The notes under the pieces were generated by a model that saw only the letters and a program-made list of their open reading frames with translations, was not told where the DNA came from and ran no database searches. Below are positions 23,293 through 54,319 of a DNA stretch of 64,000 nt, piece after piece. A program made the translations under genes and the position numbers. This DNA is from Rhynochetos jubatus (taxonomy: Eukaryota > Chordata > Aves > Eurypygiformes > Rhynochetidae): the NCBI GenBank assembly GCA_027574665.1, contig CM050654.1:30647722-30711721 (forward strand), read 5' to 3'. Each line of letters opens with the position of its first letter. The first letter of the stretch is position 1.

Positions 23293-23360
23293 CACTTGAA
23301 CTCTGGATCATGTTTCCAGATTTCTGGACCTCATCGAATTTTGTAAAAATTACATTCAAC
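23293..23360 (-). CDS. CLASP1: CLASP1 seventh coding exon (residues 215-237)
   Basis: Completes the arginine codon and encodes LNVIFTKFDEVQKSGNMIQS then SS, plus one base of the next codon. The acceptor is CCTTTCAAACAG and the donor GTGAGT; phase in 2, out 1. It forms the last helix of TOG1 and the start of the linker towards TOG2. It is too short to be found as an isolated open frame; I recognised it by sequence. This is the last CLASP1 exon visible; the next lies beyond position 1, so the following intron exceeds 23 kb. Confidence 0.95.
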
Positions 23361-24494: not shown

Positions 24495-24592
24495 CGAGAT
24501 TGGGGTAATCCTTTTTTACTGAGATCAGCCCTTACACGTTCACCAACATGTCTGTAAATCTCCACAAGGCTGTTTATTGCTGCATCTCGAAC
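24495..24592 (-). CDS. CLASP1: CLASP1 sixth coding exon (residues 183-214)
   Basis: Encodes VRDAAINSLVEIYRHVGERV then RADLSKKGLPQS and the first two bases of an arginine codon. The donor is GTAAGT; the upstream tract before its AG (AATCATCTTTATAA region into CGTGTTCAG) has a weak polypyrimidine stretch. VRDAAINSLVEIYRHVGE is the fifth HEAT repeat of TOG1 and is shared with CLASP2 in form. A 30-bp tandem duplication starts 36 bp into the following intron. Confidence 0.97.
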
Positions 24593-26934: not shown

Positions 26935-27010
26935 CTGGCTGTTTGGATCTCCAAGCAAGTTACATATATGTGGCACTATCTTACTCAGTGTTAAACTCTG
27001 AGCTCCAGAT
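26935..27010 (-). CDS. CLASP1: CLASP1 fifth coding exon (residues 157-182)
   Basis: Completes the split alanine codon and encodes SGAQSLTLSKIVPHICNLLG then DPNSQ. The acceptor is TTATTCCCAG and the donor GTAAG; phase in 2, out 0. The wording SKIVPHICNLLGDPNSQ is CLASP1-like (CLASP2 has SKLIPHLCILFGDSNSQ). It supplies the fourth HEAT repeat of TOG1. The preceding intron is 87 bp, near the lower size limit for vertebrates. Confidence 0.97.
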
Positions 27011-27097: not shown

Positions 27098-27189
27098 GCA
27101 TTGAGTGTTGCAATAAGGCAGAGGCAAATCCCTTCTCTCGTCCGGAAATTCTTGTGTTTGAATCCTCCTAGCATCCTGTCCCACACGTA
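27098..27189 (-). CDS. CLASP1: CLASP1 fourth coding exon (residues 127-156)
   Basis: Encodes YVWDRMLGGFKHKNFRTREG then ICLCLIATLN and the first two bases of an alanine codon. The acceptor is TCTTCCACAG and the donor GTAAGT; phase in 0, out 2. FKHKNFRTREG is the highly conserved third inter-helix loop of CLASP TOG1, shared almost unchanged with CLASP2 (FKHKNFRSREG). This is the strongest single family signature in the window. Confidence 0.97.
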
Positions 27190-27651: not shown

Positions 27652-27755
27652 CTGAGGGTTAGCAGCTTGTTCCATGATTTTTAGCAGCAAGGTCTGATCC
27701 TGCTCCCTCACCGAGTCCTTAGAGTCTCCCAGTCTATCAAGCAAACTTGGCAGCA
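27652..27755 (-). CDS. CLASP1: CLASP1 third coding exon (residues 92-126)
   Basis: The exon starts with the last two bases of a valine codon and encodes LPSLLDRLGDSKDSVREQDQ then TLLLKIMEQAANPQ, ending on a codon boundary. The acceptor is CTTTCCACAG and the donor GTATGC. LPSLLDRLGDSKDSVREQDQ is a typical HEAT helix pair in which the inter-helix loop (GDSKDSVRE) lies on the tubulin-facing side of TOG domains. The intron to the previous exon is only 228 bp. Confidence 0.97.
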
Positions 27756-27983: not shown

Positions 27984-28062
27984 CTGTGCCAATCTGGGCC
28001 TTGAAGCGATCTTGCAAGCGGGACACTAGCGCAGAAAGGATGTCAATCCCCAGGAGAACCAC
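27984..28062 (-). CDS. CLASP1: CLASP1 second coding exon (residues 66-91)
   Basis: Encodes VVLLGIDILSALVSRLQDRF then KAQIGT, plus the first base of the next codon. The acceptor is CTTGTGCTTGCAG and the donor GTAAGG. It enters in phase 0, matching the start-codon exon 31 kb upstream, and leaves in phase 1. The helix continues the first HEAT repeats of TOG1. DRFKAQIGT is diagnostic of CLASP1 against CLASP2 (DRLSTRFKSYVA at the same place). No stops or frame breaks are seen. Confidence 0.97.
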
Positions 28063-28928
28063 CTGCAAGCACAAGACAGACGGTGTTTTAGCATGCAGCC
28101 CTTCACCCCGGGTCTCAGCAAATGCACTCGAGAGGCAGGAGCACCGGCACACGGCCCTGGAAGAAGGGCCCCTTCCCACCCACACCACCGGCACCGCATC
28201 CATCTGCTCCAGGGCCGTGCTCACTCAGGTAGCAGGGTTGCACAGACACACATGACTCTTCCTTGCGCAGCTTCTGGCAGAGCAGCAGAGTGGTTTACAA
28301 ACAGAAAAGCCCCAAATTATTGCTCCCTGCAACATTTACAAGCCAAAATTCACTGCCAAGAACTTGGCAAAGCCAACAAACGTAATTGCCACTCAATGCT
28401 GAAATCATACGTGTTTATGTGCAATGCACGCATACCAGATGCACAAAAGTGTCAGCATTTTCCATAACCAATGTTTCTAATTGTAATTATTACACTTATA
28501 ATTAGAAAATGGTGTGTGCTAACAGCTGCTTAATTATTCACTTGCAGAAATGAAACCCAAAGACTTTCATGACATAACTGAAAGCCGGGGAAGGGCACTG
28601 TGTTTGAGAGCAGCTTCACAAGGGGCTGCAGACCGGCGAACCCACTGATTAGCTCGGTTCAATAACAGTACCAAAACCAACCCATCGCATACTGGACACA
28701 GAGCGTAGCTCGTAGAGTAAATACTGAGCAACACCCCAGAGATGACAGTTTTCAGCGAGGCCCTGAGGCTAGTACCCCCTGGAAGCGTTAGCCAGGCTGC
28801 TGAGGGCTGCCCCGGCGCAGCCCCCCGCCCCTATAGCGTCTATACGTATGCATGCGCACGGACGCGGCTGCTGGCGGGCGGCAGGGGGCGCGCTCCGTCG
28901 CCGGCGCGGCGCGGCAGGCCAGCCCCCT

Positions 28929-28936
28929 ATGCAAAT
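28929..28936 (+). promoter_or_regulatory. Octamer of the U4atac distal sequence element
   Basis: An exact ATGCAAAT octamer (Oct-1/POU2F1 site) lies at -237 to -230 from the inferred U4atac +1. Vertebrate snRNA genes carry their enhancer (DSE), with an octamer, near -220 to -240. An AT-rich octamer is also conspicuous inside a GC-rich island. Confidence 0.8.
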
Positions 28937-28950
28937 TATCGCCCGGCTGG

Positions 28951-28969
28951 CGCGGAGCACTCTGGGTAG
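28951..28969 (-). promoter_or_regulatory. Staf/ZNF143 (SPH) site of the U4atac distal element
   Basis: Read on the minus strand, CTACCCAGAGTGCTCCGCG agrees with the Staf-binding consensus YYWCCCRNMATSCMYYRCR at 17 of 19 positions by my count. It lies 14 bp downstream of the octamer, at -215 to -197 from +1. Octamer plus Staf site is the usual DSE composition of vertebrate snRNA genes, so the pair supports a working gene. Confidence 0.75.
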
Positions 28970-29111
28970 CGCCGCCGCCGTCGGCTAAACAAGGCTTAAA
29001 CCGGAGCCGGAGCCGAGGCAGAGACGCCGCTCTCCGCGCCGCGACCGAGGGGAGCACGCCCCCGAGCCTGGCGGCGGGGGAGCGGGCCCGGCGGCGCGCC
29101 GCCCCTCGCCC

Positions 29112-29129
29112 GGACCTAGGACGCGGTCA
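29112..29129 (+). promoter_or_regulatory. Possible proximal sequence element (PSE) of U4atac
   Basis: The SNAPc-binding PSE is expected near -55. At -54 to -37 the sequence GGACCTAGGACGCGGTCA has an ACC core in the right place but otherwise matches the mammalian PSE poorly. Avian PSEs are divergent, so this is a placement by distance more than by motif. No TATA box follows, as expected for a Pol II snRNA gene. Confidence 0.3.
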
Positions 29130-29165
29130 GCTTTCCCCTAGCGGAGGCGCGGCGTGTCGGCCGCC

Positions 29166-29286
29166 AACCGTCCTTATCTGGGGGTTGCGCGGCCGCTCGA
29201 TGAACGCGTGGTGAGGGCGGCCCTGCTAACGCCTCGAGCAACACACTCGGCGCCCGCCTCGCGCGCGGCGCAATTTTTGGAACCCC
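29166..29286 (+). ncRNA. RNU4ATAC: U4atac small nuclear RNA
   Basis: U4atac pairs with U6atac in the minor spliceosome, which removes U12-type introns, and is displaced on activation. The first 25 nt (AACCGTCCTTATCTGGGGGT, then TGCGC) differ from human U4atac, as I recall it, at only 3 positions. The 5' stem-loop has arms GGCCGCTC (29191-29198) and GGGCGGCC (29215-29222). They enclose a K-turn with bulge GAT, tandem GA/GA, a two-pair stem and a five-base loop, with element lengths identical to human; this is the site of the 15.5K/SNU13 and PRPF31 proteins. CTGCTAACGCCT (29223-29234) matches the U6atac stem I region and CAACACAC is also kept. A short 3' hairpin (29250-29271) precedes the Sm site AATTTTTGG (29272-29280). 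The exact 3' end is estimated. It is transcribed opposite to CLASP1. Nothing suggests a pseudogene. Confidence 0.95.
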
Positions 29287-29523
29287 GCACCGCGGCGACT
29301 GCCCGGCGCGTTCCTCGCTCCGGCCGCTCCGGCGACCATTGCCCGAGCCCGCTTGGCCCTCCCGCTGAGTGACCCAGTGGTCGCTGCACCGACTGCGCGA
29401 GCAGCCGTCTGCGCGGGCATCTGCCAGCCCACGAACGCAGTGGGTCTCTGCCACGCGGCCGGAGGCACAGGACGCGCTGACCCCCGGCGCCACCGCAGTG
29501 TTCGTTACGCTCCGGCCTACGCC

Positions 29524-29563
29524 GACCCCTCGGGTACCGATCCCTCGGGTACCGACCCCTCGG
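29524..29563 (+). repeat. Period-15 tandem repeat in the CpG island
   Basis: Two units GACCCCTCGGGTACC and GATCCCTCGGGTACC differ at one base and are followed by a partial third (GACCCCTCGG). It lies about 240 bp downstream of U4atac and is short enough to be a replication-slippage product. Confidence 0.85.
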
Positions 29564-29746
29564 CCCGCCCGTTCCGGCTGCTGCGCCTGCTCTGCGCACA
29601 GCGTCCGGCCCATCGCCCAGCCTGTCCTACGGGTTCGCTCCAAAGGCGGCTCCCTAGCAGCCAGGGAGCTATCAACACGTGCAGGGGGAACTGCTTACTC
29701 CACGTCAAGTCTCCTAAAAAGAAACTGCCCGACACAAGCAGCTAGA

Positions 29747-29917
29747 TCGTTGCCCAGGGAAGCTGTGGGGAAGTGTTCAAGGCCAGGCTGGATGAGGCTT
29801 TGAGCAACCTGGTCTGGTGGAGGGTGTCCCTGCCCATGGTAGGGGGGTTGGAACTGGATGGGCTTTAAGGTCCCCTCCAGCCCAAGCCATTCTGTGATTC
29901 CATGAGTTTATGATTCT
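29747..29917 (+). mobile_element. CR1 LINE 3' end next to the CpG island
   Basis: TTGCCCAGGGAAGCTGTGGG, AAGGCCAGGCTGGATGAGGC, GAGCAACCTGGTCTGGTGGA and the terminal ATTCTGTGATTCCATGAG with a final TGATTCT match the avian CR1 3' region and its octamer tail. It is 5'-truncated to 171 bp. Its good match suggests it is one of the younger CR1 copies here. Confidence 0.92.
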
Positions 29918-30128
29918 CCCAACCTTCTCCAAACAGCTCCTGCAGTTTTCTCCCATCACAGTAACACAGCCTTCAGCTGCATCATTTTTTTAATTCAACA
30001 TTTGCAGCACACCGACAAGATCTAGAACATACTCATATGCCAAAGGAGAGTCTTCCTCGCGCTTTTACAAACTGTGTTTCGTTTTCACATTCATCTTGCA
30101 CACCAGATTTAATCTACCACTGACAAAC

Positions 30129-30139
30129 GCTGAGTCAGC
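30129..30139 (+). promoter_or_regulatory. MARE-like motif (MAF/AP-1 family)
   Basis: GCTGAGTCAGC is an exact palindromic core of the T-MARE element bound by MAF and CNC-bZIP factors. It lies about 1 kb from U4atac, beyond the CR1 at 29917. An 11-bp match in 64 kb is unlikely but possible by chance. Confidence 0.3.
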
Positions 30140-31539
30140 TGCCTCAAGCCCCATCCCTGCTCGCCCCGCTCCTCCTGGCTGGGCTGCGGTGAGAGGATGG
30201 GCTTTACAGCCTCATTAGCCAGAGACGCTGTTAACAAAGTCACTGGGACTCTGAATGCCGCCCATCAGTCAGAGCTGTCTGATCAGTCCCATCGCTGCAG
30301 CATCCGGCACGGAGAAGTAAGTGTGGTGCCTGCAATTAGAGAGGTGTGCCCTGGGGACAGATCTGATCCCGGGAGAGGAAGGGATCCATCTCTTCTTCAA
30401 ACTGCCTGCAAGCCGGAACTCATCACTCAAGCATTAAAGGAAACATATGCACAGTGCAAACACAGGCTGTTACCCTGCAGTTTGCCCCCAGGATCAGACA
30501 GGAGGAGCTAACCCTCCCAAGACTTTTTGCTGTTGTGCTTATAGAAACAGAGAGCTAATCAGCGCGGTGATTACAGTGATGGCTTGGACAGCCATTGAGG
30601 AAACCACGGGAGGGACGAGGTGGTACTCCCTACCATGGACTCATGCATCAACCCTGATGGGCCACCTGCCTCAAACCGCTCAAGGTCAGAGGCAGAAAGT
30701 TTAAATCGTGCATGGACTGGGATCCAATGGCTCCGTTAGAGAGAGGTAACAGAAAATGTGGGGTATGACCGGCAAACGAATGAAGAATTAATTGAATTCC
30801 TGCCCTCAGTGCATTGGACTGACTGCACTGAGAAGCCCACCCCAGTTTACAACTGAGGCAGGAACTACACACCGCTGACCAGGAGGAACCTTGGGAGCAG
30901 GGAGACCATCACACGGGGCCGGGAGCAGCGATGGGCGCTGTCAGCAGCCACCCCATTGCTGCGATCTTGCAGCACACCCCTCCCCGGGGAAGCCAGCTGG
31001 CAGGCACCACACCAAGGTACAGGAAGGGCAGCTCTCCAGCCCAGATTCCAGATAACGCTGCAGTGCTGGTAACTACGGAGCTATTCCAGGCCTGTACATC
31101 AGCACAGGTCGTGCCCCAAGCAAGGTGGGACTCAACTCACCAGTATCTCCAGTAGCATAGAGACCCCCCCCAATCCTCAACAGCAAAAATACCAGGTGAG
31201 CTGTCACTGCTTTTAGCCCCCTCCCTTATACAGGCCCCCAGACCCACTGCAGAAACACGCAGTGGCCCAGCCCTAGGTCTGTGGCTTGGCTGCTTTGCTT
31301 ATTTGACTCCTGAGGTGCCCCCAGACAGTCAATAAAGCAGTTTGTGCCATCCAGCATTCAGTTCAACTGCTGCTGCTGTGTATGTCCCTGAGTAATTTCC
31401 GTAGGTGCTAGGGGCTGTCAGCAAGCCCTTCTCATGCCTCCCTCCAACTGCCAGGTCTCAAGGCACCATCATCCCCAGTAAACAAGCCTCTTGTTAGTTC
31501 CTGGGATGCAGCACAGCCTTTCCCAATACAGAAAATGCC

Positions 31540-31553
31540 TTTTTTTTTTTTTT
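31540..31553 (+). repeat. Poly-T run
   Basis: Fourteen consecutive T residues with no recognisable SINE or LINE body beside them. Confidence 0.95.
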
Positions 31554-32317
31554 CAAGCCATCATCAAAAACCTACTTCAAAGAACTCAAAGCATCTGTCC
31601 TGTAATACCTGGGTGGTGCTGAAAGGCCCGCAGGCAGCTCCATTATCAGCCAGCAGACAGCCTACCATCATCTGCTCTAACAGTAAACGCTCTCCATGCA
31701 TGGCAGACAAGTAAACACATCCAACGCAGCCTCAAACAAGACACACCTAAATGCACTCCCATAAGAGGGCGAGAAAGCGAGCTGCAGGATCCAGCACCAG
31801 CGGATGCAGCACCAAGTGACCAGTAGAATCACAGCCTCAGGCTACCCCGACAGCCTGCACTAGCACAGCAGCTCCAGACCGTAGTGAGGAGATGAGCCCT
31901 TCCCTCCACTCTCCGCACCATGCCACATAGAGCAGGGATGCGGTGCACAGACCTTTGCCCCACGCCTCTTGCAAGGACTTTGCGATGGGCTGAGCAGCAC
32001 ATCCCCACAGGCTGGTTTCACCCTGCTGGACCTTCCACACCTGGCAGCTTGGGACCCAAATGGGAATGCTGGAGCTGAGTCACCAGCTTGTTTCATGCTC
32101 AGTCTCATCTCCAACACGGTGGTGACACAGCTTGGCTATTTCACTTTGGAGTCTGTCTGTGAGGCTTTTCTTGAAGGAGGGAAGGGAGGTGTACGACAGC
32201 GTTCTAATACTCAACATGCAAAAAAACCTGTAAGAGAATTCAACCAGGTTTTTTTGAACACTTAATCTTTTGGAAGAAGCACTTGCATACTTAAAGTAAA
32301 CTTAATGTATTTGTGAA

Positions 32318-32386
32318 CATGTTCCACTGGAATTCCACTGGTACAGGCTGCCCAGAGAAGCTGTGGATGCCCCATCCCAGGAAGTA
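32318..32386 (+). mobile_element. Short CR1 LINE fragment
   Basis: The run ACAGGCTGCCCAGAGAAGCT followed by GTGGATGCCCCATCC matches a conserved block of the avian CR1 3' region. The similarity ends abruptly after AGGAAGT, so this is an internal remnant without the tail. Confidence 0.7.
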
Positions 32387-33113
32387 AATACTGGCTTTAA
32401 ATACTTCTCAGTCTCTCCTACACCAGTGAGGGGTGCACCTGAGCTAGATCTAACCCGGCATCTGCAAGACCTAGCCCATACAGCAAATGTGATGCTTCCC
32501 ACAGTTTACTCTTCAGTACTGCCAATACAGGCCACTGAAGACAGTGAGCTACTGGTTTAAGCTGTTGACTGTATCAGTTTCTTCTTCTATCATTCTCTCT
32601 CAGTCCCTCCAAGGTATAGTTAAATGCTGGTTGTCAATATATGTCAGACAACTTAAAGGAAAATATTCCAAAGGTTTACTATCAGTACTATACCAGTGAC
32701 TCCAGCTGAAGCCAGGACACCAGAAAACCAAGTGCCACACAAAGGCAGAGAAGGACAGCCCCAGTCCTGACCTGCTCAGCTCAGCGTGCCTACGCAGGGA
32801 GCAGCAGCCTCACATCAGCAGATACGCACCAGTGCCCATCAGTGTCTGGCTGAGCCACTGTGTCACCCTGCAAGGGACCTGGGACATTCGACTGAAGCGA
32901 CTCAACTGGCCCAGGCCCGGCACCCTGCACACCTCTTTACACAGCTCCTGGCTCAGCAGTCTAACCCATTCAAGCCTCTTGCAACTACGGCTCTCTTGCA
33001 CCCAGCTCTTTGCACAGCTCTTGATCAATTCACGTATCATTATAATATCTTAGCTTCTGGCAGGTAGATATTCCCAGAATTTGATCTGGTCTGGAAACAG
33101 CAATCAGAATAAA

Positions 33114-33145
33114 CGTGTGTGTGTGTGTATATATATATTTTTTTT
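33114..33145 (+). repeat. Compound (GT)n(AT)n microsatellite with T tail
   Basis: About seven GT units pass into about five TA units and then a run of T. Such compound repeats are usually length-variable. Confidence 0.95.
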
Positions 33146-34108
33146 CTGTCCCTGCCCATTTAAAAGCTAATGCTACCTTTGAGGGCAATGCTTTCCCCAT
33201 GTTCCAGAACTCCACTCCATATGCCACTTAACACACAGAAAATAACCATTCTTCTCCTTCCTAAGCATGTTCCTCTCCTCAACTCCTTTTGACCTATGTG
33301 TCTGCCACTTTGGCTGTCATCACTGGTATCTGGAGCTACAGCCGGAGCATCGCTCTACTGAGCTCCCACAAGAGAATAAAACATCTGGTTTTCTCCCTCA
33401 GACTGAAAACAGACTCCTTTTCAGTTGTTCCCAACAGATACTCTATTACATGACAGCACAGTAAAACACAATGCATCCAAAATTAGGGCACACCCTTGGG
33501 CCACACTGGGGCATGGCACCCGGTCAGAAACTCAAAGAGGTTTTGCAATCTCAGGCTGGCTACCTACCCACAAGTATCTAGGGTCTGGGACACCCCGACA
33601 TGGGCAAGGGCAGACTCCTGGCCTTAGAGGCTGCGGATGTCTGCAGAACTGCTCTGGAGCAGGACGTGTGCACCAAGTGCTACTCAGCTGCGCTCAGTTC
33701 AGCTGTGTACTTGTGGCTTTTCTAACAAGCTATCTGGAGAACCCGATTCCGTACCTGTAACACTCCGCATCATCCCACTGACCTGATATTTGAGGTCTGA
33801 AACAGATGACAGTCGTCACCATGGGACAGCTGTTCAACAAAATCTGCCAGGAAAGAGTTATATTGGATATTGTAGTCCTGTCAGAAACCCACTGGTAGAA
33901 AATACTTCTGTGACTGGCACCCGTGGACACCCAGCTGTGGGCAGACCTGGGCAAGCAGCCTGGCCATACCTGGTTCAAACGCAACACAAGGGTGGGCTGA
34001 CACTGCTAAGACTCAGCTCCACCAGGACCCATGCCAGGCCTGTTCCTGGGGCAGAAGCACTCCAGTCTCCGGAGCTGTGAAACTGGTCAGGCACTGCACA
34101 GAAAAATA

Positions 34109-34164
34109 GAAAAAAAAAAAAGGGAAAAACCCCAAAACCAACACCACACAAAAAACCCCAACAC
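34109..34164 (+). repeat. A/C-rich low-complexity tract
   Basis: A poly-A run followed by AAAAACCCC-type and CACAAAAAACCCC-type units. On the CLASP1 strand this is a T-rich tract with G runs, similar in character to 24049-24133 but in the opposite orientation. Confidence 0.75.
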
Positions 34165-35765
34165 AAACACCTCAAGAGAATGGAATTCTTCATCCTGCAT
34201 TGCTGGAAGGGGCCAGCATTTTCTCAAGGGAAAAAAAAATGGCCACCTGAGCAGCTGATAGCACAAGTAGAAAACCCTTTGGAAAATTACAGGGACAAAC
34301 CACATACATTTTGGCTTCTATATCCAGCTCTAGAAGCACATTTAAACAAGCCAGGCAAATAGTTCCTATCAGTGCTCCAGCGCCACAGCTACACTAACAA
34401 GCATCCTTCCCATTAGAGGCTTCCACAAATTCTTGTGGATTAATACAAGAAAGGTATTAATTAAACGCTGAACTAAATAATTAGCTGTTGGATTAATTCT
34501 CTTAAGTGGAACTCTTAAGAAACCGAAATACATCAGAGGCACTGAAGCTACAGGTGTAATACAAGGCGGCACTCAGTCCAGCACAGGCTACACAAACGGC
34601 TCGCACCCTGGGAAAGCAAAGCCAGATGAAGCAGGTACCTCCCGGAGAGGCCCTACTCACCTTTTCTCTCATTTTCGACTTCCACCATCAACACAACAAA
34701 AGGACAACCTGAATCAGGTGTTCAAATAGCCATCTGGATCCTGATTTTAAAAGGTCAGTTGCTTTGTTTGGCAATTCAGTTACTTTCTCAAAGACGTTTG
34801 TCCTCACTGGACACTTGCTCACCAGAACATCCTTCCAGCCTTCCTCTGAACAGGATACACCATATGTAACTATTTGTGCAAGGAGCTAATAGCACAGCAC
34901 ACATTTATGGAAAGGCCAAAACTTAAGAATCTAAATATAACTTTGTAAAAGAGGCTGGGTCATGTTCCGGAGGAGGGAAGGTCTGGGGTTTTTTCCTCCC
35001 CCAACAGTGCAGAAACCTGATGCCACACTAAAACAAATTAGTTTTGTTTTGTAACACTGCTGAATCCATGTTACATTTTCACCTCGGAGGAGAAAAACAA
35101 CAACAATTTTCCAAAATTTTCCAAGTTCCTCCTTGTAGTGAAAGACCAGGTTTGTTAAAGAAACAGAAATATCTGTAATTTGCCAAGAAGAGACTCATGA
35201 GACTCAGCAGTCCCCTGTCATCACAGGCAGCTTCAAAGTTGGATTTATTTCTTTTTGTATGCAAGAAATGGTAAGGGAGGCTTGGTGGAATTTTCTAAAG
35301 CACAAATTAGGTGCCAGCTTAAACCAAAATATGCAGCATCCAGAGACACCAATACCACTGAAAACGTGCCCTTCACATCTTTGAAACCTCTTCATTCTAC
35401 GTCATCTCTTTTTATTCATACAGGTTGGAAGTCATGCAAGCCTGCCTGCTCCCCTGACTTCAAAAGTGGTTTCTTGACTTTCAGGCACTGCTTCCAAACT
35501 GAACTGCCCCATTAGTATTAGTTTTTGCCTTAAATAAGGCAACATCTTTTACACAGAAGGGAAAGCATGGTCATTCTGAACTCCTGGAACCAAAACCTGG
35601 TGTCTTGTGAATTCTGAAACAAGACGGACACAATGCTGGACAAGACACTGTGCCATGGTTAAGATGATGCAGAGGGGATGCCAGATTGTTTCCTCCTGTC
35701 CAGCCCTACTGCACACACCATCCAGAGTTAAAAGACCTCTTTAACCCTTAGCATCAGTATAGGGC

Positions 35766-35870
35766 TCACCAATAAAGTCGGGTTAGAAGTGGTCTCCAAA
35801 GGCCAGCTAGTTCAACAACATCCCCACCCCACTGCTCAAAACTACATCAGGTTGGTCACACCTCTACAAA
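35766..35870 (-). mobile_element. Diverged CR1 LINE fragment, antisense
   Basis: GGTTAGAAGTGGTCTCCAAA, GGCCAGCTAGTTCAAC, CCCCACCCCACTGCTCAAA and CATCAGGTTGGTCAC follow the order of the reverse-complement CR1 3' region. It is clearly older than the copies at 11545 and 29747. Confidence 0.7.
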
Positions 35871-37288
35871 ACATTCTGTTTTACTCGATTCTTAACGTTT
35901 AGTCATTCGGCTGTCGTTGACTTCAAGTATTCATTACAACTCGAAATAATTTTATGTATTGTAGTTAAAAGCAGTCCTGTCAACTCAGGAATGGATTTAA
36001 TGAGCTTCAGTGTCACCACCAAGACAACCTTGCTGGCAGACTGAAACAACAAAACCGATTCTATTTTTTTTTTTAATCCTTCTCGAGGTACAGTTGTATA
36101 AGCCAGGCAACACTCCGTAGTCTCCAATGCCTTCAGCTACATGATCTGATCCATGACAATCTTGGATTTCAACAGCGCTTCATGCAGGTATAAAGGATCA
36201 GTGACACGGATCAGACAGCAAGATCAGCACATACGCATCAAGTTCAAATACTGCCAGCCGTAGCAGGAATTCGTACATTCTTTTCAGCAGAAAAATGGCA
36301 CTGGGCTTTTGGTTTATTTATCTTGGTTTTGTTTAACTTGACATCATCTGATAACGGTAAAAAGTTCAAAGTCACACACAGTGACAGGCTCCAATTACTA
36401 TTCCCCTCTATCTGCCTGCGTCAATGACAACTTTGTTCAGGGGGAGGGATTGCTGCTGGCAAGCCTCTTGCAGTCTGTGGCACAGAGACCATTTCAGAAG
36501 AACAGGAGATCGAGTTTCGCAGATAGTAACTATGTCAGGCTAGTAAAACATCAATTAGAGAAAGAGAAGTTAAGATACAGCGATGCTCGAGGATAACACC
36601 AAGAAACATAACACACTTGCCCAATAACGCCGCTTGTGGTGCAGGTCAGAGCTCGAGTGACTGCTTTTTCCTCAGCGCAGTTGTAAGGAAAGTCAAGCAC
36701 ATCAGCTACCAAGTCTTACACAAAACGAACGCCACCAACTGAGTAGGAGGGGATCCAGCTGCAGTTATGTCTCTTCTTGCCCTTCATCCTTTTCCTCCTG
36801 CAGGCTACTAGCACTTTCCTGAACCAGGGCAAGACAGGAACCAAACCAGTGTTTTTCAAGAACTTTCATATCCTCATCTGGAACTGAAGAGTGTTAGTAC
36901 TATCATAAACTTGTCATGCTGAGGCCTAGCAGAGCTGTATGTTGGAGAGAAATATTATTTGGCTACTTCGCATACATCTGCCTGCAGTGTTGGGACTATG
37001 CCAGCATGCAGTCCAGTTACAAACCAAGTTCAGCCTAAGATCTATACGTGCTGGGGGGAAAAAAAATATCCACAGAGCTACTCGTACGCTCGCATCACCA
37101 TTTAAAGAGATTTCTCTTCCCTCCTTCAAAGGACTTGAAATTTTTTGAAAGCACACATATACATTCTGTTCCTTGTCTTCCAATTCATACATCAAAGAAG
37201 ATGTCACAAACACAAAGCAAAGTAGAAGCAAAGCACAGATTCATCATTAACTCCTTCTGTAGAGACCCGCAAGCAATGTGCAAGCCCT

Positions 37289-37868
37289 TGTGCTGTTTGT
37301 GGCTGGGACAGTTAATTTTCTTCACAGGAGCTGGTATGGGGCTGTGTTCTGGATTAGTGCTGGAAACAGTGTTGATAATACAGGGATGCTTTCCTTACTG
37401 CTGAGCAGTGCTTACACAGCGTCAAGGCCTTTGCTGCTCCACCCCACCAGCAAAGAGACTGGGGGTGCCCAAGAAGCTGGAAGGGGACACAGCCGGGACA
37501 ACTGCCCCCAACTGACCCAAGGGATATTCCAGACCATATGGTGACATGCCTAGCATCTAAAGCTGGGGACAGGAGGAGGAAAGGGGGGACATTCAGAGTG
37601 ATGGCATTTGTTTACCCAAGTACCTGTTACACATGATGGAGCCCTGCTTTTCTGAGCTGCACGCTGGCCTGCCAATGGGAAGCGCTGAATGAATTCCTTG
37701 TTTAGCTTTGTTTGTGTGAGCAGTTTGCTTTACCTGTTAAACTGCTCTTATCTCAAACCACTGAGTTTTCTCACTGCTACCCTTCCAATCTCTCATCCAT
37801 CCCACTGTGGGGAGAGTGAGCCAGCAGCTGTGACGTGCTTAGTTGTCGGCTGGGGTTAAACCATGACA
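37289..37868 (+). mobile_element. Solo LTR of an avian endogenous retrovirus (ERVL-like)
   Basis: The element begins TG (37289) and ends CA (37868), with the 5-bp direct repeat GCCCT on both sides (37284-37288 and 37869-37873). That is the boundary structure of a retroviral LTR with its target-site duplication. The body (GGCTGGGACAGTTAATTTTC, GCTGGTATGGGGCTGTGTTC, GACCCAAGGGATATTCCAGA, the closing GGCTGGGGTTAAACCATGAC) is of a type I know from ERVL-class LTRs in bird genomes. No internal viral sequence is present, so it is a recombined solo LTR with no coding capacity. It lies antisense to CLASP1, as most surviving intronic LTRs do. Confidence 0.9.
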
Positions 37869-38826
37869 GCCCTACACTTTATTATTTTCGATGCATCTTG
37901 ACTTTTAATCAACCAAAGGCAAGCAATTCAGATTTGCTGCTACAGGCCAGAGTCTGAACCATCAGACCTGAAGAATCTGAGGCCAGCTGTCTGTACTCAC
38001 ATCGTATTCCCCAAAAACAGACCAGGGCAAATCAGCGTTCACTGCACATTTCTTACCTTTCAATTACTTAATTCTGACCTTAAAGATCATCTAAATTGTA
38101 TTTGGTGAGGAAAAAACAATTCTAAAGCCAGATTTAGCTACTAAGCTATTTCAGTCTACACATAGATTGTGTGCTGTTTAAAGAGTTGCCCAATGATGTG
38201 CTGACCTTACATATGCCTTGATGGTTTCCTGAAGTGACTCATTAAATAATCCGAGATAATGAAAACATTTCATTTTGCAAGAAGATTAATTCAGCTGCAT
38301 TATTTTTCCACAAAACTCCTCTTGTTCACTAGACAATTAGGACTAGAAGTCAGGATATGGCAACATCAACACCTCCTTTTTATCACCCAGCAAGAAACAC
38401 AAGGTCCCAGGCCAAATACCCATGGAAAGCAATCTCACTCCCTGCTCCTCAGAGCTTAGTCTGAAATCCCTTCTTAGGAGGGTTTGAGAAGGGATATAAC
38501 ACTAATCAACACCAGCACCGATTCTATTGTTCCTTTCGCCTGTGTGAAGTGGCACGCAGGCAAAGAGCACCCCTCCAGCCCACACTGTCTCGGCAAGAAC
38601 ATGAAGATACATAGTTGCTGACTTCAGAAGGAACTGGTGCTGCTCCTACCTGACTCTGGGCACCACAAAACAGACATGCAGCTGAGCTGGGATTAGGCTC
38701 CCAAGCCTGCCTCCCGAACCTTTGATCAGGTTATGCGCTGCACAGGAGACACGGGTCTGAACCATCTCTACCCAGAGCTCCTGTCACTTGAGCCAACAGC
38801 AGTGGGCAAAGGCAAAACTGAGCCTT

Positions 38827-38838
38827 GGGGGGGGGGGG
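38827..38838 (+). repeat. Poly-G run
   Basis: Twelve consecutive G residues. Such runs are prone to length error in sequencing and assembly. Confidence 0.95.
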
Positions 38839-40674
38839 TCAAACAACATCATCAGAAGAGATTCTAATTCGGCCTCTTGTGTGGGGAACCCATGACCTAG
38901 CCCATGTAAAACTGATTGATAGAATTAACTGTTACAATATAACCAGTAGCTCCTTCTTGCTACAAATTATGTCCTGCCTAAGCAACCTTGCCTGAATGAC
39001 TTTCCCACGGTACCCCCCCAGGAAAAGCCTGGGGTCAGTGCAAGTGGATCCAACACTGCACCGCCCATGGGGGTGCTATCACAACAGTGCCTCCCACACC
39101 TTCAGTTTTCCGGGTTTCAGTTAAGTCTCAGGGAAGGCAGGTTTATGTATGTGACAAAGGTCCCACCGAAGAGCCTGGCAGTAATTAACTGACAGACTGC
39201 AGATTGAGGATTTTGAACTTCAAACCTCCACAACCCCTGCTCCCTGGACACAGCTGCCCCACAACCACGCTAAGCAAAGAGCACATGCCACGCTCAGGAA
39301 GGGGCTGACAGACATGCTGCAGCTCTCCTGCCCCGCCAAGCTGAAGTGGAGCAACACCCATCAAACCAGTCTTCTGCTCACATAATGGCAGTTCAGGTAC
39401 TTCTTTTGCGGCAGGTCTAGAAGCCATTGCTTGCTCCTTCCGAGCTCCCACTATGTTCATTTGGCCTCTCTCGATATAGCAGGGTGCTGCAGTTCAGCCT
39501 CAGCGCACATGCAAGGTGCACCCTTTCCCGGGCTGCAAAGCCCAGGAATACCCAACAGGTAGCTGCACCAGGGAACAGGCAGGACAGGCAATGACAGACA
39601 GACACAGTCACAAACCAGAGCCAAAGTACCATTAACACCATCAGTCACTCCTGCCGTGTATCCTGGATGACTGTAAGACACTTCATACACACAATGTCCA
39701 GGAAGACAAACTGCGGTCCAGCTGACTTGTCCGGAACACTTCTGCTGCAGCCAAGACAATGAGCCTCCAAGACCATTTTTATTCTACACTCTTGCTTTCC
39801 AGGCCGTACATACAAGAAGTGCACCGAGAGAAGACTGACTTGAGCCCTGTCTCCCAAAGCAAAATTTTCTGTGCACACGGATCAATCCTACCACCTTCTA
39901 CAGGTCCCCACACCAGAAATGCCTTTAATTCATACCATCACATTCTTGATCACAGCAGAAGTTCCTACCCAGGGTGACAAATCAACATTGTGACCTGCTT
40001 GTCTGCCACAGCATGCAAGTTTCCCAACACTGTCTCCTTGGTGTGACTGTAGCTGCACTCACCCCATCTGCCAGCGTGCTCTTTTCCCTGCCACACGCTG
40101 TGCCTTTCTGGAGATTATGGAAAGTCTCTCTGCCCACGACAATGCCTTTAAAGCTGCATCCCACATCTCCCCCCACCTCCTCTTTGTTAATGACACAGCT
40201 ACAGAACTGGGGCTGGAAACCAGAGCAGCCAGCATAAAATGGCTAAGGATTCCTTTAGGAGATCTTCATTAAGTAATGAAAAAGTTGCACCTCCAAGGGC
40301 ACGTGATCCTTCAGTCAAAGGGAGCAGATCCATCTGCAGGCCAGTGAGGCGGTTGTTCTCTATCCTTCAATTACTTGTCACCTTTCTGGGATGGGAAGAG
40401 CAGCGTGCCCTTATCCTGGAATCACACCAGGTCTAGCCATTCAAGGATGCTTCAGCACAGACAAAGCTCCACCAACACACTGCAGAACAAAGCACAACCT
40501 GCTAGCCCTCTTCAGCAGAGGGGTAAACAGTTGTTGTGGAAACTACATTGAAGAGATTTTGCCAGCATGGACTTGAACAAGGGTGGTGATCAACTTTTCC
40601 CCTATCCTCCAGAAGGATAAAGAGAAATCCTCTTAGATTAGCTAGAAAGGAAATTAAGCATGAAGAGCAGAGGG

Positions 40675-40830
40675 GCCCTGGAACAGACTAATTCAGGAGG
40701 CTGTGAAAGCCTCAAAAGGTGTATTTAAAGCATAGCTTGGAGAAACATCTGACAGAAGACACTTGGGTACATTTGGTTGTGTTCTGTGAACAAGAAACTG
40801 GATTTGACTATTTCCTCAAGTCTCTTATAT
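40675..40830 (+). mobile_element. Old CR1-like LINE 3' fragment
   Basis: CCTGGAACAGACTAATTCAG, GAGGCTGTGAAAGCCTC, TTGGAGAAACATCTGACAGA and GTACATTTGGTTGTG follow the order of the CR1 3' region of older amniote (L3-like) subfamilies. Identity is low, so the assignment rests on the order of several short blocks. Confidence 0.6.
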
Positions 40831-43800
40831 TAACAATACTTACAAATCTCCTCCCTGCCATTAGAAATACAATATCAGCAAAGTAAGCGATGTTACTAGT
40901 TGGTAAACATCCTTTATGAATAGAAGGCAAAGTGACAATAGACTCATTAGCAATCCACTGCAGACATAGCTTACACAGGCAAACAGAAGTTACTCCCCAG
41001 GGTAAGGCTGATACTCTTGTTAACACCACTTTCCAACAAGGGCTTAACTCAAGATTACGTACAACCACAAAGTATATAAAGGCTAAGGTGAACCGTACAC
41101 TCCCTGAAATCCAAACCATACTCATCCTTTCTTTCCCTGCAGGATCCTTAACAAACTCTACACCAATGTCCCCAACTTAAAACACAAACAGAAATTTCTT
41201 CTTGACGACGCTTATTTTGGGCCCAGCTTTAAGAAGTACGAAACATGCTCATCATGAGATTTCTTGGAAGAACAAACTAGGGAAGCGCTCGCTTAGAGAA
41301 CATGAAAGAGCTTCTTCCTTGCTGCAAGCAAGACACAAGGAGGCATTTGGATTCTATCATGCTGAACTGCTTCAAGACCCAAATAAGGCCCCTCATACTT
41401 GTGACATTCATTATTCAGCAGCAAACAATAGGCCTTAATAAACTTTTGGCTATTCAGAACAGCTTTCTAATCACCCATACATCTGACTTCACAGACCACA
41501 CATGCTGGACACCGCATGAAAGGGAATCAGTGTCAGCATACTCGGCGTGCTCTGCCCTGGTTTCCCTCTCAGTGTGACTCAGTTGTGCTGCTTTGCCACA
41601 GCAAGACCTGCTACTACAGCCAGAACAACACACAGACCAGCCCTTTCCCAATTGAATTTAACTGATTCATACAACACTACAAGTAAGCTAAACCTTGTAA
41701 AAAAAGTCCCCAGGCCACTCAAGTCAGTAAAAAATTCACTTAAGGCTTGTAGTGTACCTCATTAGGGACAAGCTTAAATTGAATTGTGTGTGTGTCAAGA
41801 AACATAATTTCCACAATTTTTCAAACCTTATGACACAGAAAGTGGCTTCCCTCTATGTAGTTAAGATCCACCATTGAATGAAATTCCCAGGCAAAGTCTG
41901 TGCTAGGAAACATTCACACATAATCCTTAGCTGCTGGCTCTGCAGAGTGTAAGAAACAAGCTGATCTTAAGTTAAACATCTTCCCCCCACTACAGAGGGT
42001 CTTGACATCAGGCCCCGCTTTCAAATCACTACAACAGGTTTGCACAACCAGTATCCTCAATTTAATAAGCACAGTATTTTCCCAAAAGAAAAAAGACTTA
42101 AGAGGAGGGAAAGACATTATACACTTGGACACCGTGTACTGTCAGTCAGCCGCAGAGCTGCCAGCTGAACCCGAGTCTCTAACAGCCCAGCTCCCACATG
42201 AAGCACAAGCCTTGTATCTCTGCTGACTCAAGCTGCAAGATTCACAACCTGTACTCCCAGGCCTTATAAACACTCGCTGCTCCTTATACACATGAGGATA
42301 TGAAACAGCCCAAGTTACCTGGAAAGAGAAACTGTGTTTGAAAATCTTATTTTCTCTTCTATGGATAGCCCGAACACTATTAAAGGCAAAGACCACCAAA
42401 ACACATTTCCTACACATCAACAGTCGTACTCAGATCACACTACTGCAATGCCTATTCATCTTAAAGCTGCAGGGAAAAAATACTGTCTGGCTTGTGGTTA
42501 AGGTTTCCTACTTGCATACAGTCTCTGAACGTGCCATCAGAATTTCTCCAGAGCTTTCCCCTGCACAGATGAACAAAATGGGAAAGAAATTTCCAAGCAG
42601 GTCACTCTGCACTGCTGCTGGAACATCTCCTCTTGCTTCATCTAACACAGAGCCCAACCTCCTACAAGCAAGGGCTGCATCTCCTTTTTGCCTGCAAACA
42701 CCACAAACAGGGCAGAAATACTGAAAAAAAAATATTGTCTGCAAGGTATCCAAATCTTCAACTCACGAGCCACCCTGCAAACACGCTGGACTGCTATTCT
42801 GGTTACCTACACAGAACTCGGTTGTGGTGCAGACGTGTGGTTTGCAAACCAGGATTTTGTCATCACCATCCCTGTTTTACAGCCTCAGCAGATGAAGAAG
42901 GGTTTGCTGCAAGCTAAGAGTCAACGGCAGGCTCTTCAGTATTAACCACTCTTCATTATTGCCCTCCTTTTACGCACACTAAATAAAATCCACACAGCTC
43001 CTTCATAGCTCAGACTGGGAGTGGCACTACCTGGCCAACAGAGACCTGCAACAGACGTTTTCTTCTTTCAAACCTGGACTGGTATGTTCGGGGAGGGGCA
43101 AAATGGCCAGGCTCTGCCCTCCAGCCATTTCCCAAGAGCATACTGGAGGCATAATTGCAATTAACTACTCCTAAGGCTGCCAGCTCAGCAGCAGCTAAGC
43201 CATTCCCATGGCTCCTGAGTGAATTCACTGTGGTGGTTTTAGGAACTGGGCAAATAGACCAGACCCAGCAACTGAATCCTGCCACTGCACTTCTCCCTAC
43301 TTTAAACATCCTCCTAGAGACCTGGGGGGACAAGGTATCATTAACCTGGCAGGAGAGAGGCATCGGCATGTGGCATTAGCTAGAGCACCTGCATATACAA
43401 GCAGAATTCCTTTCCCCTGGAGCTCATTCCTCCAAGGGCACCTGCCTTCCCAGCAAACCTTTACACCAGCAAAAACCCAGTTCCCACTCAGATCCTCCCA
43501 GTTCAGCAACCCAGACAGATGGTCTCCAACTTGCAGACACAAAACCCACCCACAGCAGTTTAACCATGTTCTTCTATCTAAAGGGGTAAGGGCTAGCAAG
43601 CAACCCGCCCAGCCTCACTTCCACACACTGAGGAATTTGTGGAGCAGTCTCCATTCTTTTGGGAGTGACTTACAGCTTCACAGAAACATAAGGCAGAAAA
43701 TGGGGAGGAAATCCCTGGTTATTTTTCACCCTCTTCACTACAGTCACCTTGCTGCCAGCCTATTTCAGTCAGGCAGAGGAGGGCTCCCTCCCACCATGTC

Positions 43801-46800
43801 TGGTACAAGTGTTTCCCTAACACTCGTTCTGTGCGTCTCCCTCCCAACGGAGGTGACAGTACTGTTCACCAGGCTCTTGTGCTCGGTCACATCGCAGCAC
43901 GCCAAGGAAGCTCCAAACTAAGTCTGGTCAAGCTGCCAGAGCTGTGGTGGGCAGAGACTGCAGGCAGAGCAACAGCAATGCCCCAGGAGCCAAGCCACCT
44001 AACACAAGTTCTGGAGAAGCAAACTGCAGAGACGAAAGAAGGAGGAGCTTCTCCATGTGAAGCGGGAGACAGTGAGAAAGAACCTCTCTACTGCTCTTTG
44101 GGTAAATACTCTATCCAATTTGTGCCACATCTGTTGTTCAAGCAGGTAAAAGCAACGTGCTTCAGTGATGGGTTTAGCAATTTGTTGGTCTGAAATGTAA
44201 TTCCAGATCCTTTTGGATGCAAAGAGTCCTACAGAAAATAAAAAAATTTGGATTAATCTCATCCTTCCAAAATAATTTTATTTTCTTTTGATCTAGCATC
44301 AAAGACTTTAGGGCTATGTGTATCATTAACTATGCCAATCAGAAGAGCAGTGAATGCAAACCAACAATTTACAGTATGTGTAGGGAAACACATACATTAA
44401 ATATTTCTAAACCAGATCTAGCAAGGTCAGGGGAGAAGCAGGGGGTTCCTCCTAACAAGCAAGACTTCCAGGAAGTTTTATACACAGATTAGCTCTAGTG
44501 AAGGCTTCAGACGTCAGGCGTCAAAAGGCACTATCTGCGTTGAAGGAGCCCATTAAAGGCTCCAGCCCAAATCTTCTAGACAAATACTGGAAGAAGACAC
44601 TACACAAGGCATGGGCCATTGCCGCAGTTCAAGACCCATCAGGCCTAGACAAGTACATAAAGACTAACATGTGAGGCTCAGGTGTCCATAGGGCAGACAG
44701 ATCACTTAGTGCTCATTACTAACAAAAGAACATCAAAAAATAGATTTACAGCTCCCCTGGAACAGAACATTCATCTCCTCCGACTCTCCCCTTGCTGACT
44801 CCAGGAGCACATGCACAAATTTGCTTTCAGCAGAAAGCTGGAGCTCACTGCATTAAGGACAAAATTAGCTATACGAGTCAATTGAAGAGTATATGCTTCT
44901 TTTCAAGTTTCATTTTAATCTTTTGATGCCAGATGAAAGAAAAAATAAGATCCATCTCATAGGTATGCAACTGTTCCCAAAATGAGCACTGAACAGCAGA
45001 GATTCAAAACAGGCACAAAGATGAAAACAATATCCATAACTGTGTCATCCACAAACATCAAACCTGTCAGCGAGAAAGAGAAGACAACCTTGTAGCAAAG
45101 GACCCCTCTCAGTCTTGGGTTCTATTCCTCCCTCCCTCCCTGACAAGCCTCAGCCCAGAAATCAAAGGAACAGGATACACCTCAAATACGTGCAAAACTC
45201 TGGACCCTACTGCCGGCCCTGGGACAACCAAGTATCTGCTGATGGGCTCTTCCATTTGCTACAGAACAGTAATCCTTTCAAACATGACACAACCCCCCCT
45301 GACGGACCACCCAGCATCAACCCAAGCAAATAACGTGCTGCACAAGGACACCCCTTCCTGGCTGAAGCCTTACTGCCAAATCACAATCCAGTGTGTAAGG
45401 CTGGCTAGTCAGTTGCTCTCCTCAGAGACATTTATACCTATAATGATTCCATTCAAGTCAAATGAGATTCTAAATTTCCTCCAAAATAAGCAAGAGCAGA
45501 ATACAGGATGTCAAAACAAGCATTGTCTGGAAGCAGAGGGAACATCCTTCTCACACCACTGATCTGGAAAGGGCAAAGGAAACAGCAGGGACAGGAGAAG
45601 AAAAAAACTGGTTGAAAGCAGCATTCTGTCTATCATCAAGCTACATTATTTGAAAGAACACAGCCAGCACAGACCATGATCTCTTTACCCTACATTATTT
45701 GCCCCAATAACAGATATTTTTAGAGGCAGAAGGGGCTCATTAGGTTAGTTAATCCGATAGCCTATGTAATACAGTTCATGAAATCCCAACCAGTTCCTCC
45801 TGCACTGAAACCAATTATTTTCTATGAATAAAGTGTTTCTTCTGGAGCAGCATTAGGGCTTAATCTGATTTAAGATCTCCAAATCAAATAAAGGAAGAAT
45901 TCTAACCTACAATTTATTGTTACAGATATAATATTGCATACACCACAGTAAAATGCAGAAAGACATAAGCCTTTTTTTCATCTGCCAAAAAAGCACCCTT
46001 CCACCCAAAGATTCATACACAATAGTTTTCAAGCTTCTGAAACGTAGCAGGACCTTTCTATTAAGCACGTGGATCTCCAGGAAGCAAATGTAAGCCCCCA
46101 GACAACAGACTCACTTCCTTCAAGCTATCTTGTATAGCTTCCTAAACAACAACCCGAGTTCCACACGGCGCAGAGATCACAGGCTGGAAACTGGTGCTTA
46201 CTCCAGCCAGCAAAGGCTTGGGTTGTTCTTGTATCAATTCCTATAGCAGTACAAAAAACAGTAAGAGACCAAGCGGGTTTTATCCCCATCTTTTATTCTG
46301 TAAAAGCTTTATACAATACAGCATCTTTCAAAGATGCCATATTCACACAATGCCACGGTAACTGGCATGGAAGCCAAAATTTTTGATACAAATTCACATT
46401 GAATTGACTATAAGAGACTACCAATGTGTTTTCACCTTAAAACCACCCCAAAACTATCACGAGGAAATACAGATTCAAAGCCTCAAATAGGGGGAGTGGG
46501 AAAATCATAAATTTCAATCACATGCCCTGACTTGTGTAGCAAAAGAGTAAATAAGATTAGTTACCCCCCAAATACCTATTACTAAAGGTTAGCCTTAAAG
46601 GAATGGCTCCCAGAAAAAAATTTCCGTAAGGTACACAGTTCAAACACAAATTAATCCTTATTAACATGCACACAAGTAGCACTGGCCTAGATGTTATTAA
46701 AAGCATTTCAAGAGTTAAAACTAAAAAAAATAAAAGCCAGATCTTTCCTGCATGAGCTGTGGTGTTCATCCAAAATTACATCCCATCTCCGGAGAGCCTG

Positions 46801-49800
46801 CACATGGACATGCTTCAAGCAGCACACTGCAGGAGGTGAGGTCAATCTGAGTTTCTCCTAGTCTAATGGCAGCAGGATCTGGCTGTTAATTAAGTACTAG
46901 ATTTCCCATTGTCCCAATCCTACCACACCTTTCCTGATTAAAAAAGGCAGCTTTTGGAGCATTTTTGTACTAGCTGCTGCTCAGCCTACTTTGGCTACAG
47001 AGCCATTTTTTCTGGCATATATTCACTTATCAGAACTGCTTTCACTTATCGCAAATGCCTTTCTGATCCCTGGAAAGCAACCCCCAGTAACACATTTAAT
47101 TTCCTTCCTCCCAGCTTGAGGATGCCAGTCACCTACAACTGCTGATAGCCATGAAGTAAATAGAAGGAAGATAAACAGGCTCAAGTCATCTTCTTGACCT
47201 CCCAGAAGCTTTTCCTGGCTCACCTCCCACCCTGATGAACATCATCTCATCAAAGCCCTGCCCTCAGCCTCTTCTCTTTGCCTGTGCCTACCTCACCCCA
47301 ATGTAATAGCACACAGCAGAACCTGTTCCTGCTCTGCTGCTCTCAGATTGCCACATGACAGTCACCAGTGGATCCCTCCCACCCTCATCCTTCCCCACAG
47401 CCCATCCTTCCTCCGATCAGCAGCTCCCTGCTCCTCCAAGCTCCAGACTCCTGCACACCTGCTCAGATTCCCCAGAAGGCTTGATCCAGGGCTTTATCCA
47501 GGCCTTCTGAACTGCCAGCATTACGCCATCTGCACAACTAGTTCTTTGAGAGATGGCTGCTTACCCAGCTACCCACGGTCTCTCGGTGAACGTCTCGTAC
47601 ACCCAGAGCACAGCCTTGGCTCAGCAACCGAGGGCTGCAGCTGCACCGAATGGGCCCCTTTGGCTGGGAGTGTGCCGACAGCAGGACCACCCCAGCAAAC
47701 CCACTGTGCCTAGACCAGCAGAACTGTACCGATGTTGGCCCAGTGACCTTGGGATCATCACAAGATGCACGTCTACAAAACACCTGTGATATATTTGGGT
47801 TCTAGTTAAAAACAGAAAACACATAACACGTAGAAGTACCCATGTAGAGTGTCTAGCACATATTCCAGCATTTCATCTGGGATCTTCTCTCTAAATCAAC
47901 CTTTCCCTTCAGTCTTCTGAAAAGACTGGGCAGCCCATGAAACCCACATGACCTAGATGACTTCACTATGACGTTATGAGAAACATAGTCTCCATAGGCA
48001 AAAAAAAAGCCAGCAAGCCACCCTCACACTACCTTTCACATCACTTTGTGTTGTAACAGAGCTACCACTCAGATAAGCAACCAACTTTCCTTATGTGTTT
48101 GTCCAGCTACAGCACACTCTTCCACTGCCATTCCCATGCACTAATTCCTCTTGAAAATGGCCACCATGAAACTCTTTGAAAGATGAAGGTGACATAGTAA
48201 GACATCCACAAAATATCATCAGCCCCAGATACCCCTGTGATAGCACAATGAAGGGTAAACAGCTGAGAAAAGACCGTGTTAGTACCTAATACTCAGCTAA
48301 GATCTTTGCCTGCCTAGGAACTTGAAAGATACTTTTCAAGTTTATTAGGTCTCTAACCTTGCAGTACTTCACGCAGACCTAAAATCCAGCCCTTCCATTT
48401 TGTCCTAAACAGCTCAAAGTTCTCACATGGCTCTCAGTAGCTCAACTTTCAGCTGTCACATATCCTTTCCCTTCTAGCTTTCCCAAATATTCCAGCTCTG
48501 CCCCATCACCACTTTTGTACAGGGAATTGTCCTACCCTGGTACCTTGGCTAGGATGACCCTTCTTTTCACACCCCCACCCCTCTCTAGCAGTTCTGCACG
48601 TTGAAGTTTTCATCTCCCCACCTTCATAGCATTGTCATTGTGCCCAAGATGCCAGCTCCTGTCTTCCCGTTCATCTGTGGTGCCAGTTCCCATCACACCT
48701 TCAGGTGCAAGATTTCAAACAAGAGCCACTGCACTTTTCTCCACACAGGCCCTCCTGCTTGGGAAAAGCTTCTCATTAATTGTAAGCTAGCTCACTGGAA
48801 CAGGCAATTCCAGAAGGAAACGGATGAAATTGCACAGAGAGAGTGGGACTCAAGCAACTCGAAGAAAGAAGCAGGGCTCTTTAAAGGCAACAAGGAAGCT
48901 CAGATCTTGGTGGGGAACGGAGCTGATGGAGTCTTTCACAAGCAGGCTTATTCACAGTCCAGCAACACTATACAGATAACAACTTTCCAAAGACCTAGAG
49001 GGGCAGAAGGTAGAAGAGGCAGACAGTGCACTACCAGGAAAGCCACCTATGCAGGTCTGGAAGAAAAGCTTTAGCCAGACAAAAGAAACCCAAATATTCC
49101 AATCTGTAAGAGCAGGTACCTCCTTAACCCTGTGTGCAGTTTCAGCTTTCCATACAACATCCAATCTTTGCAAGATAAATTCCTCTTGGAGGTCAAGCAG
49201 TTCAGCCACACATCTAATAGCGGCACAACAAAGGCACCCTTCATTCCTCAGGATACAACACTGCACTGCTCCTCCGAACGTCTTAAACAAGGGTCTTAAT
49301 TTAAAAAGCTAGGAGTGCACCGCAGCATCCTCATTAAACAGGTAAGAACACGCACAGATGTACTGTCTATGGAGTATTGGTTTCAGGAAGGTGCTGCAAC
49401 AGGACTGACTCCATCAGCTACGAGCGAATGGGATTCCCTCCAACACTCAGGTACGCTTTCACTCCAATGTGGAAGCTAGGGCTGTCGATGAAGCTGTTAC
49501 GGAAACTGTGCTCTTAACAGCTCTGGCTCCACCAGACCACCTTGGTGATGGGCTCATATCAGTAAAAGCCCTAGCATTCAGCTTTAAACAGCACTGAACA
49601 AGTGTCATCCCCTTTATCAAAGCTCCCAAGAGACATTAAGTCCACCCAAACTGTTAAAAGCAGGGATTTGTTCCACGGCACTGCATAAGCAGAGATGCCT
49701 CCATTTGCGGCAAGATTTCGAATCAGACCCAACGCGACTACGTCAACTGATGTTAGTCAAATGGAGAGTTACTACAATACAAGGCAAAAATACTGTCTTT

Positions 49801-50939: not shown

Positions 50940-51000
50940 ATGGAACTGGATGAGCCCAAGGGTTCTTGCAACCTGAATTACCCTGTGATCCTATAAGCTG
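50940..51000 (+). mobile_element. CR1 LINE tail remnant
   Basis: AACTGGATGAGCCCAAGGGT, TCTTGCAACCTGAATTACCC and TGTGATCCTATAAG resemble the last 60 bp of a CR1 with its octamer tail. Short and diverged. Confidence 0.55.
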
Positions 51001-54303: not shown

Positions 54304-54319
54304 TTTTTTTTTTTTTTTT
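54304..54319 (+). repeat. Poly-T run
   Basis: Sixteen consecutive T residues; no attached retroposon body recognised. Confidence 0.95.

Follow-up and report, generated by a model that had tools for sequence, protein, structure and literature searches.

U4atac is a small RNA required for the splicing of a rare class of introns. In the bird genome studied here, its gene lies within an intron of CLASP1 and on the opposite strand, which raises the question of why an essential gene should sit in the path of host transcription. The window analysed is a single stretch of 64,000 nucleotides, and positions refer to it unless a contig is named. The evidence presented below argues strongly that the locus is the bird's RNU4ATAC orthologue, that it lies antisense within a CLASP1 intron and is transcribed as an autonomous Pol II gene, and that the nesting has been inherited and tolerated.

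Identity and copy number of the U4atac gene

When the entire window was scanned with cmscan for 4227 Rfam families, RF00618 (U4atac) was the single match above cut-off. The match occupies 29167–29284 on the plus strand and covers the full length of the model (positions 1–132) with a score of 80.4 bits (E 5.2e-12), the gathering cut-off being 53 bits. This bears out the proposal of the preliminary description, made from the letters of the window, that a full U4atac RNA is encoded on the plus strand, and a low covariance-model score is excluded. The start at 29166 includes a leading A, like human n.1, while the 3′ end is approximate, from 29284 to about 29287, as the sequence does not fix it. 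The letters AATTTTTGGA align to the Sm site of the model.

Across the 1,331,379,947 bases of the 148 contigs, one U4atac match was obtained, at this same locus, with 49 of 37,783 first-look candidates scored; single copy therefore means here the sole copy found among those 49. The better-scoring U4atac elsewhere that the preliminary description had envisaged was not found within that scope. A pattern scan for stray vertebrate U4atac in viral contigs gave no match. At the level of sequence, the locus is the bird orthologue of RNU4ATAC and is apparently single-copy. According to a genome survey of 48 birds (PMC4378963, as excerpted), U4atac and U11 show widespread apparent loss; for this gene, patchy in the older bird assemblies of that survey, location, strand and likely promoter are now fixed.

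The other snRNAs were searched for genome-wide by the same method, with 40–46 candidates scored for each. One strong match was found for U6atac (136.5 bits; a second copy is weak, at 46.8 bits), U12 (144.4 bits), U11 (105.1 bits, plus a copy at 71.8 bits) and U4 (127.1 bits, plus a fragment below cut-off), and 19 U2 matches were found among the candidates scored. Seven U2 genes with scores of 187.2–190.5 bits and clear 3′ boxes are arranged on both strands within ∼14 kb of a 356-kb contig (C42, 327616–341905). The best U5 match was weak (75.8 bits), with two others at ∼55 bits (L015–L017); the genuine U5 genes may have diverged, may have gone unscored or may be absent from the assembly. Feather-type keratin gave at least 150 matches, all over cut-off, with 150 of 197 candidates scored; this number and the size of the genome are in keeping with a bird. 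The weaker U11, U6atac, U2 and U4 copies (L006, L003, L014 and L041; Table 1) are probably snRNA pseudogenes, contrary to PMC5493778, whose available text excepts birds from having them.

Table 1. Features of the U4atac–CLASP1 locus and weaker snRNA copies elsewhere in the genome
Feature	Position	Strand	Basis and remarks
U4atac snRNA coding region	29166..29284	+	RF00618 covariance model; n.1 = 29166
Octamer ATGCAAAT, Oct-1/POU2F1-type	28929..28936	+	-238 to -231; exact reverse of ATTTGCAT, 8/8
Staf/ZNF143-like (SPH) site	28951..28969	-	17/19 consensus letters; -216 to -198
PSE-like element TCGCCCGGACCTAGGACG	29106..29123	+	-61; like U11 and U12 elements
CpG-island-like stretch	28801..29600	.	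Four 200-bp bins, GC 0.72–0.79, CpG o/e 1.07–1.24
CLASP1 host intron containing U4atac	28063..59070	-	31,008 bp; GT-AG splice sites, exon map
CLASP1 first coding exon, codons 1–65	59071..59265	-	Splice sites, protein match
CLASP1 second coding exon	27984..28062	-	Splice sites, protein match
CLASP1 third coding exon	27652..27755	-	Splice sites, protein match
CLASP1 fourth coding exon	27098..27189	-	Splice sites, protein match
CLASP1 fifth coding exon	26935..27010	-	Splice sites, protein match
CLASP1 sixth coding exon	24495..24592	-	Splice sites, protein match
CLASP1 seventh coding exon, final one found in window	23293..23360	-	Splice sites, protein match
Weaker U11 copy (L006)	C2:128518032-128518150	-	No exact upstream octamer, no CpG island over gene
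Weaker U6atac copy (L003)	C1:108245637-108245754	+	No exact upstream octamer, no CpG island over gene
Weaker U2 copy (L014)	C13:18096085-18096275	-	No exact upstream octamer, no CpG island over gene
Weaker U4 copy (L041), below cut-off	C25:9212926-9212990	+	No exact upstream octamer, no CpG island over gene

Conserved pairing within U4atac and with U6atac

The human U4atac and U6atac sequences used for comparison are presumed to be accurate. At the 23 U4atac positions mutated in human disease, for which reference bases are listed in PMC7337319 (as excerpted), the presumed human U4atac agrees with the published base in every case (23/23). The bird and presumed human RNAs are identical at 89 of 118 aligned letters. 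Of fourteen pairs checked in the 5′ stem-loop, 13 are standard in the bird and in human alike, and the remaining one is C-C in each. The predicted fold of the bird stem-loop, with its internal K-turn loop, is that of the presumed human RNA. Nine sites in the stem-loop differ from the presumed human sequence and all 13 standard pairs are kept; three pairs (26-57, 27-56 and 29-54) are changed on both sides and three more on one side. In a crude control, which ignores base composition and was devised after looking at the sequence, nine randomly placed substitutions preserved all 13 pairs in just 2 of 20000 trials.

The bird U4atac carries the human reference base at 21 of the 23 disease positions, including all five in the Sm site. 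At n.5, one of the two exceptions, the bird base is G, where the human pathogenic base is C. The other, n.29, is occupied in the bird by C, which is itself the human pathogenic base (T>C) and here faces G54. Predicted folding of the human stem-loop gave -13.4 for the wild type; introducing C29 changed this to -8.7, and adding G54 to C29 brought it to -14.9. Given that C29-G54 is the normal state in the bird, n.29T>C would be expected to be rescued by n.54A>G in the published human splicing assay.

Stem I and stem II of the bird U4atac can both pair with the U6atac of its own genome. At U4atac n.11, within stem II, the consensus of Rfam is g, which faces C40 of U6atac, and the bird has A facing U40; a pair of RNAs encoded on two contigs is thus altered on both sides relative to the consensus. 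The predicted stem II duplex was most stable for bird with bird (-28.2 kcal/mol), with -23.9 and -24.1 for the two mixed bird/human duplexes and -23.7 for human with human, the human sequences being the presumed ones.

The CLASP1 host gene and the U4atac promoter

CLASP1 exons were searched for with a human CLASP1 protein probe. Joined at GT-AG sites, the seven exons found in the window give a stop-free translation of 237 residues, which scores 498.8 bits against human CLASP1 (PDB 6MQ5) and 299.3 bits against CLASP2 (5NR4). The translation is identical to 6MQ5 at 226 of 236 residues, making the assignment to CLASP1 independent of the probe. These results confirm that the host is the one named in the preliminary description, minus-strand CLASP1, and the intronic placement of U4atac stands as well: the RNA lies inside the GT-AG intron 28063–59070, with CLASP1 exons on both sides (59265–59071 and 28062–27984), and is about 1.1 kb from the exon starting at 28062, on the opposite strand. 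The coding part of CLASP1 extends beyond the window to about C7:30551423, 96.3 kb left of the window start, and its coding span of 155.6 kb makes up about 1.2e-4 of the bird genome. A genome search with PF12348 gave only two weak matches, both on other contigs; the exons probably split the domain.

A U12-type intron in CLASP1, which would have made a feedback loop, was looked for and rejected. The gene span holds three RTATCCTT motifs, none adjoining a found exon. The check took in 34 exon matches, most of them with approximate ends; four, including the terminal exon, showed no donor motif within the stretch inspected, and the E-value limit removed one weak match (residues 564–587, E 0.002). 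A CpG-rich stretch outside the window (86001–88000 on the window scale; L034), some 27 kb upstream of the first coding exon of CLASP1, has GC of 0.59–0.84 and CpG o/e of 0.69–1.35 in 200-bp bins. It may represent the main promoter of CLASP1 and its non-coding exon 1.

Upstream of U4atac, elements of the snRNA type were found at positions typical of the other snRNA genes of this genome (Table 1). The octamer was scored against the consensus in PMC5493778 (as excerpted). In a scan of both strands over 264 kb around the gene, an octamer was found within 60 bp of a Staf site (at least 17/19) nowhere else, and on the plus-strand reading the PSE core comes 130–200 bp after the pair. The PSE-like element resembles those of U11 (TCGCCGTGAGCTAGGCAG, at -62) and U12 (TCGCCCTGACCGCTGGGG, at -60). 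Of 5000 shuffles, 10 equalled the match of U4atac to a core common to U11, U12 and U2, which had been chosen after looking; for the published PSE consensus by itself the number was 1604 of 5000, which is not significant. The U4 gene fits the core poorly (6/9). This comparison used seven of the 19 U2 matches, those of the C42 array (loci are given for eight), and set aside the weak U5 matches and the U11-like, U6atac-like, U2-like and U4-like copies. The GABP core motif (CGGAAG) was absent from -500 to +100.

No 3′ box was recognised in 29285–29354, where the best candidate reached 6 of 12 letters; the scores elsewhere were 9 for U11, 10 for U12, 11 for U4 and 10–11 for the seven U2 copies. Such a score says little, since the U11-like and U2-like copies, likely pseudogenes, score 9 as well, and values of at least 8 occur in 64 of 86 background pieces. 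The lack of a recognised box lowers confidence in ordinary snRNA 3′ processing and leaves the identity of U4atac intact.

Production of U4atac and persistence of the nesting

The order of these elements suggests how the gene could work. Oct-1 and Staf/ZNF143 would bind the distal element and SNAPc the PSE, and Pol II would produce a short plus-strand transcript. Bound by Sm proteins, this RNA would pair with U6atac and act in the minor spliceosome. CLASP1 transcription would cross the gene on the other strand and would not be needed for making U4atac. Protein binding, transcription and function of this kind are the most likely reading of the locus, and so is a lack of coupling to CLASP1. The human gene offers a parallel, its promoter being described in PMC3499247 (as excerpted) as bound by SNAPc with Pol II and GTF2B, and as an example of occupancy by POU2F1, ZNF143 and GABP.

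A 2023 review places U4atac in a CLASP1 intron and says, in the text available, that its expression needs host transcription and splicing (PMC10228655). Release of U4atac from the CLASP1 transcript in this way has virtually no likelihood here: the RNA is antisense to CLASP1, so that splicing of the host intron could yield only its complement, which refutes this origin for the window. The snRNA-type promoter elements at the bird gene speak against it too, as does the occupancy of the human promoter by SNAPc and activators (PMC3499247, as excerpted). The antisense layout in the bird thus argues against the dependence on CLASP1 transcription and splicing claimed in that review. It is also very improbable that this copy has decayed or fallen silent, with the working U4atac in an unassembled or unscored stretch. 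The unrecognised 3′ box, the patchiness of U4atac in older bird assemblies (PMC4378963, as excerpted) and the 49 scored candidates would fit such a copy. Against it stand the failure to find another match in the 148 contigs, the compensatory changes seen both inside the stem-loop and in the pairing to U6atac, the conservation of disease positions and the presence of promoter elements. Moreover, the weaker U11, U6atac and U2 copies examined here have no CpG island over the gene.

Other explanations concern why the two genes stay together. The U4atac promoter island might double as an internal CLASP1 promoter, with divergent transcription running in the CLASP1 sense into the exon that starts at 28062 and so holding the pair together. 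The octamer is 867 bp from the start of that exon, towards which divergent transcription would head, a CpG island is present, and ZNF143 is tied to bidirectional transcription in the title of a cited work. However, the islands at U12, U11 and U4 are as large as that of U4atac or larger, so that the latter needs no extra cause; the CpG-rich stretch upstream of the first coding exon is a candidate main promoter; and a start at the U4atac island would truncate the first TOG domain. An internal promoter of this kind is accordingly considered unlikely. A broader form of the idea, in which selection keeps the nesting because the island starts or tunes CLASP1 from within and has coupled minor-spliceosome supply to a microtubule regulator since the bird–mammal ancestor, is rated as quite unlikely. 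As for the nesting having arisen twice, by an insertion into CLASP1 in each lineage, the comparison covers just two lineages, at the level of the host gene, which leaves some room for a double origin. With a target of ∼1.2e-4 of the genome, it is nonetheless improbable that a second landing would hit this gene again, on the matching strand, and two independent landings are rated highly unlikely.

The nesting was therefore most likely inherited from the bird–mammal ancestor, as judged from these two lineages. We take human RNU4ATAC to be antisense to CLASP1, like the bird gene. Its location within CLASP1, noted in the preliminary description, is stated in the available text of both PMC13400782, which has the two genes overlapping, and PMC10228655, which has U4atac embedded in a CLASP1 intron. 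The layout is thus already known from human and is extended here to a bird; the excerpts of the U4atac and CLASP1 literature consulted contain no description of the bird arrangement, which is not claimed as unreported. The presence of an essential gene in the path of its host is, for now, best answered by inheritance and tolerance. This is a modest answer: to judge from its sequence, the U4atac promoter looks self-contained and a functional link is not demanded.

Compared with human RNU4ATAC (2q14.2), the bird gene shares the overlap with CLASP1 (for human, PMC13400782, as excerpted), the 5′ stem-loop, stem II and the Sm site, and its predicted octamer and Staf sites match the POU2F1 and ZNF143 reported at the human promoter (PMC3499247, as excerpted). 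It differs in a shorter, GC-rich 3′ stem-loop, in C29-G54 for U-A and A11 for U11 of the presumed human sequence, and in having no recognised GABP motif or 3′ box. Within its own genome, it resembles U11, U12 and U4 in the distal elements near -200 to -240 and the CpG island, and U11 and U12 in the PSE-like element near -60, whereas a clear 3′ box is seen at U12 and U4, and the shared PSE core is lacking at U4. Intronic snoRNA genes are likewise housed in introns of protein-coding genes, and lie on the host strand. Their orientation follows from their processing from host pre-mRNA, which applies to nearly all vertebrate snoRNAs (PMC3349704, as excerpted). The bird U4atac gene differs from them in lying antisense to its host and in carrying promoter elements of its own.
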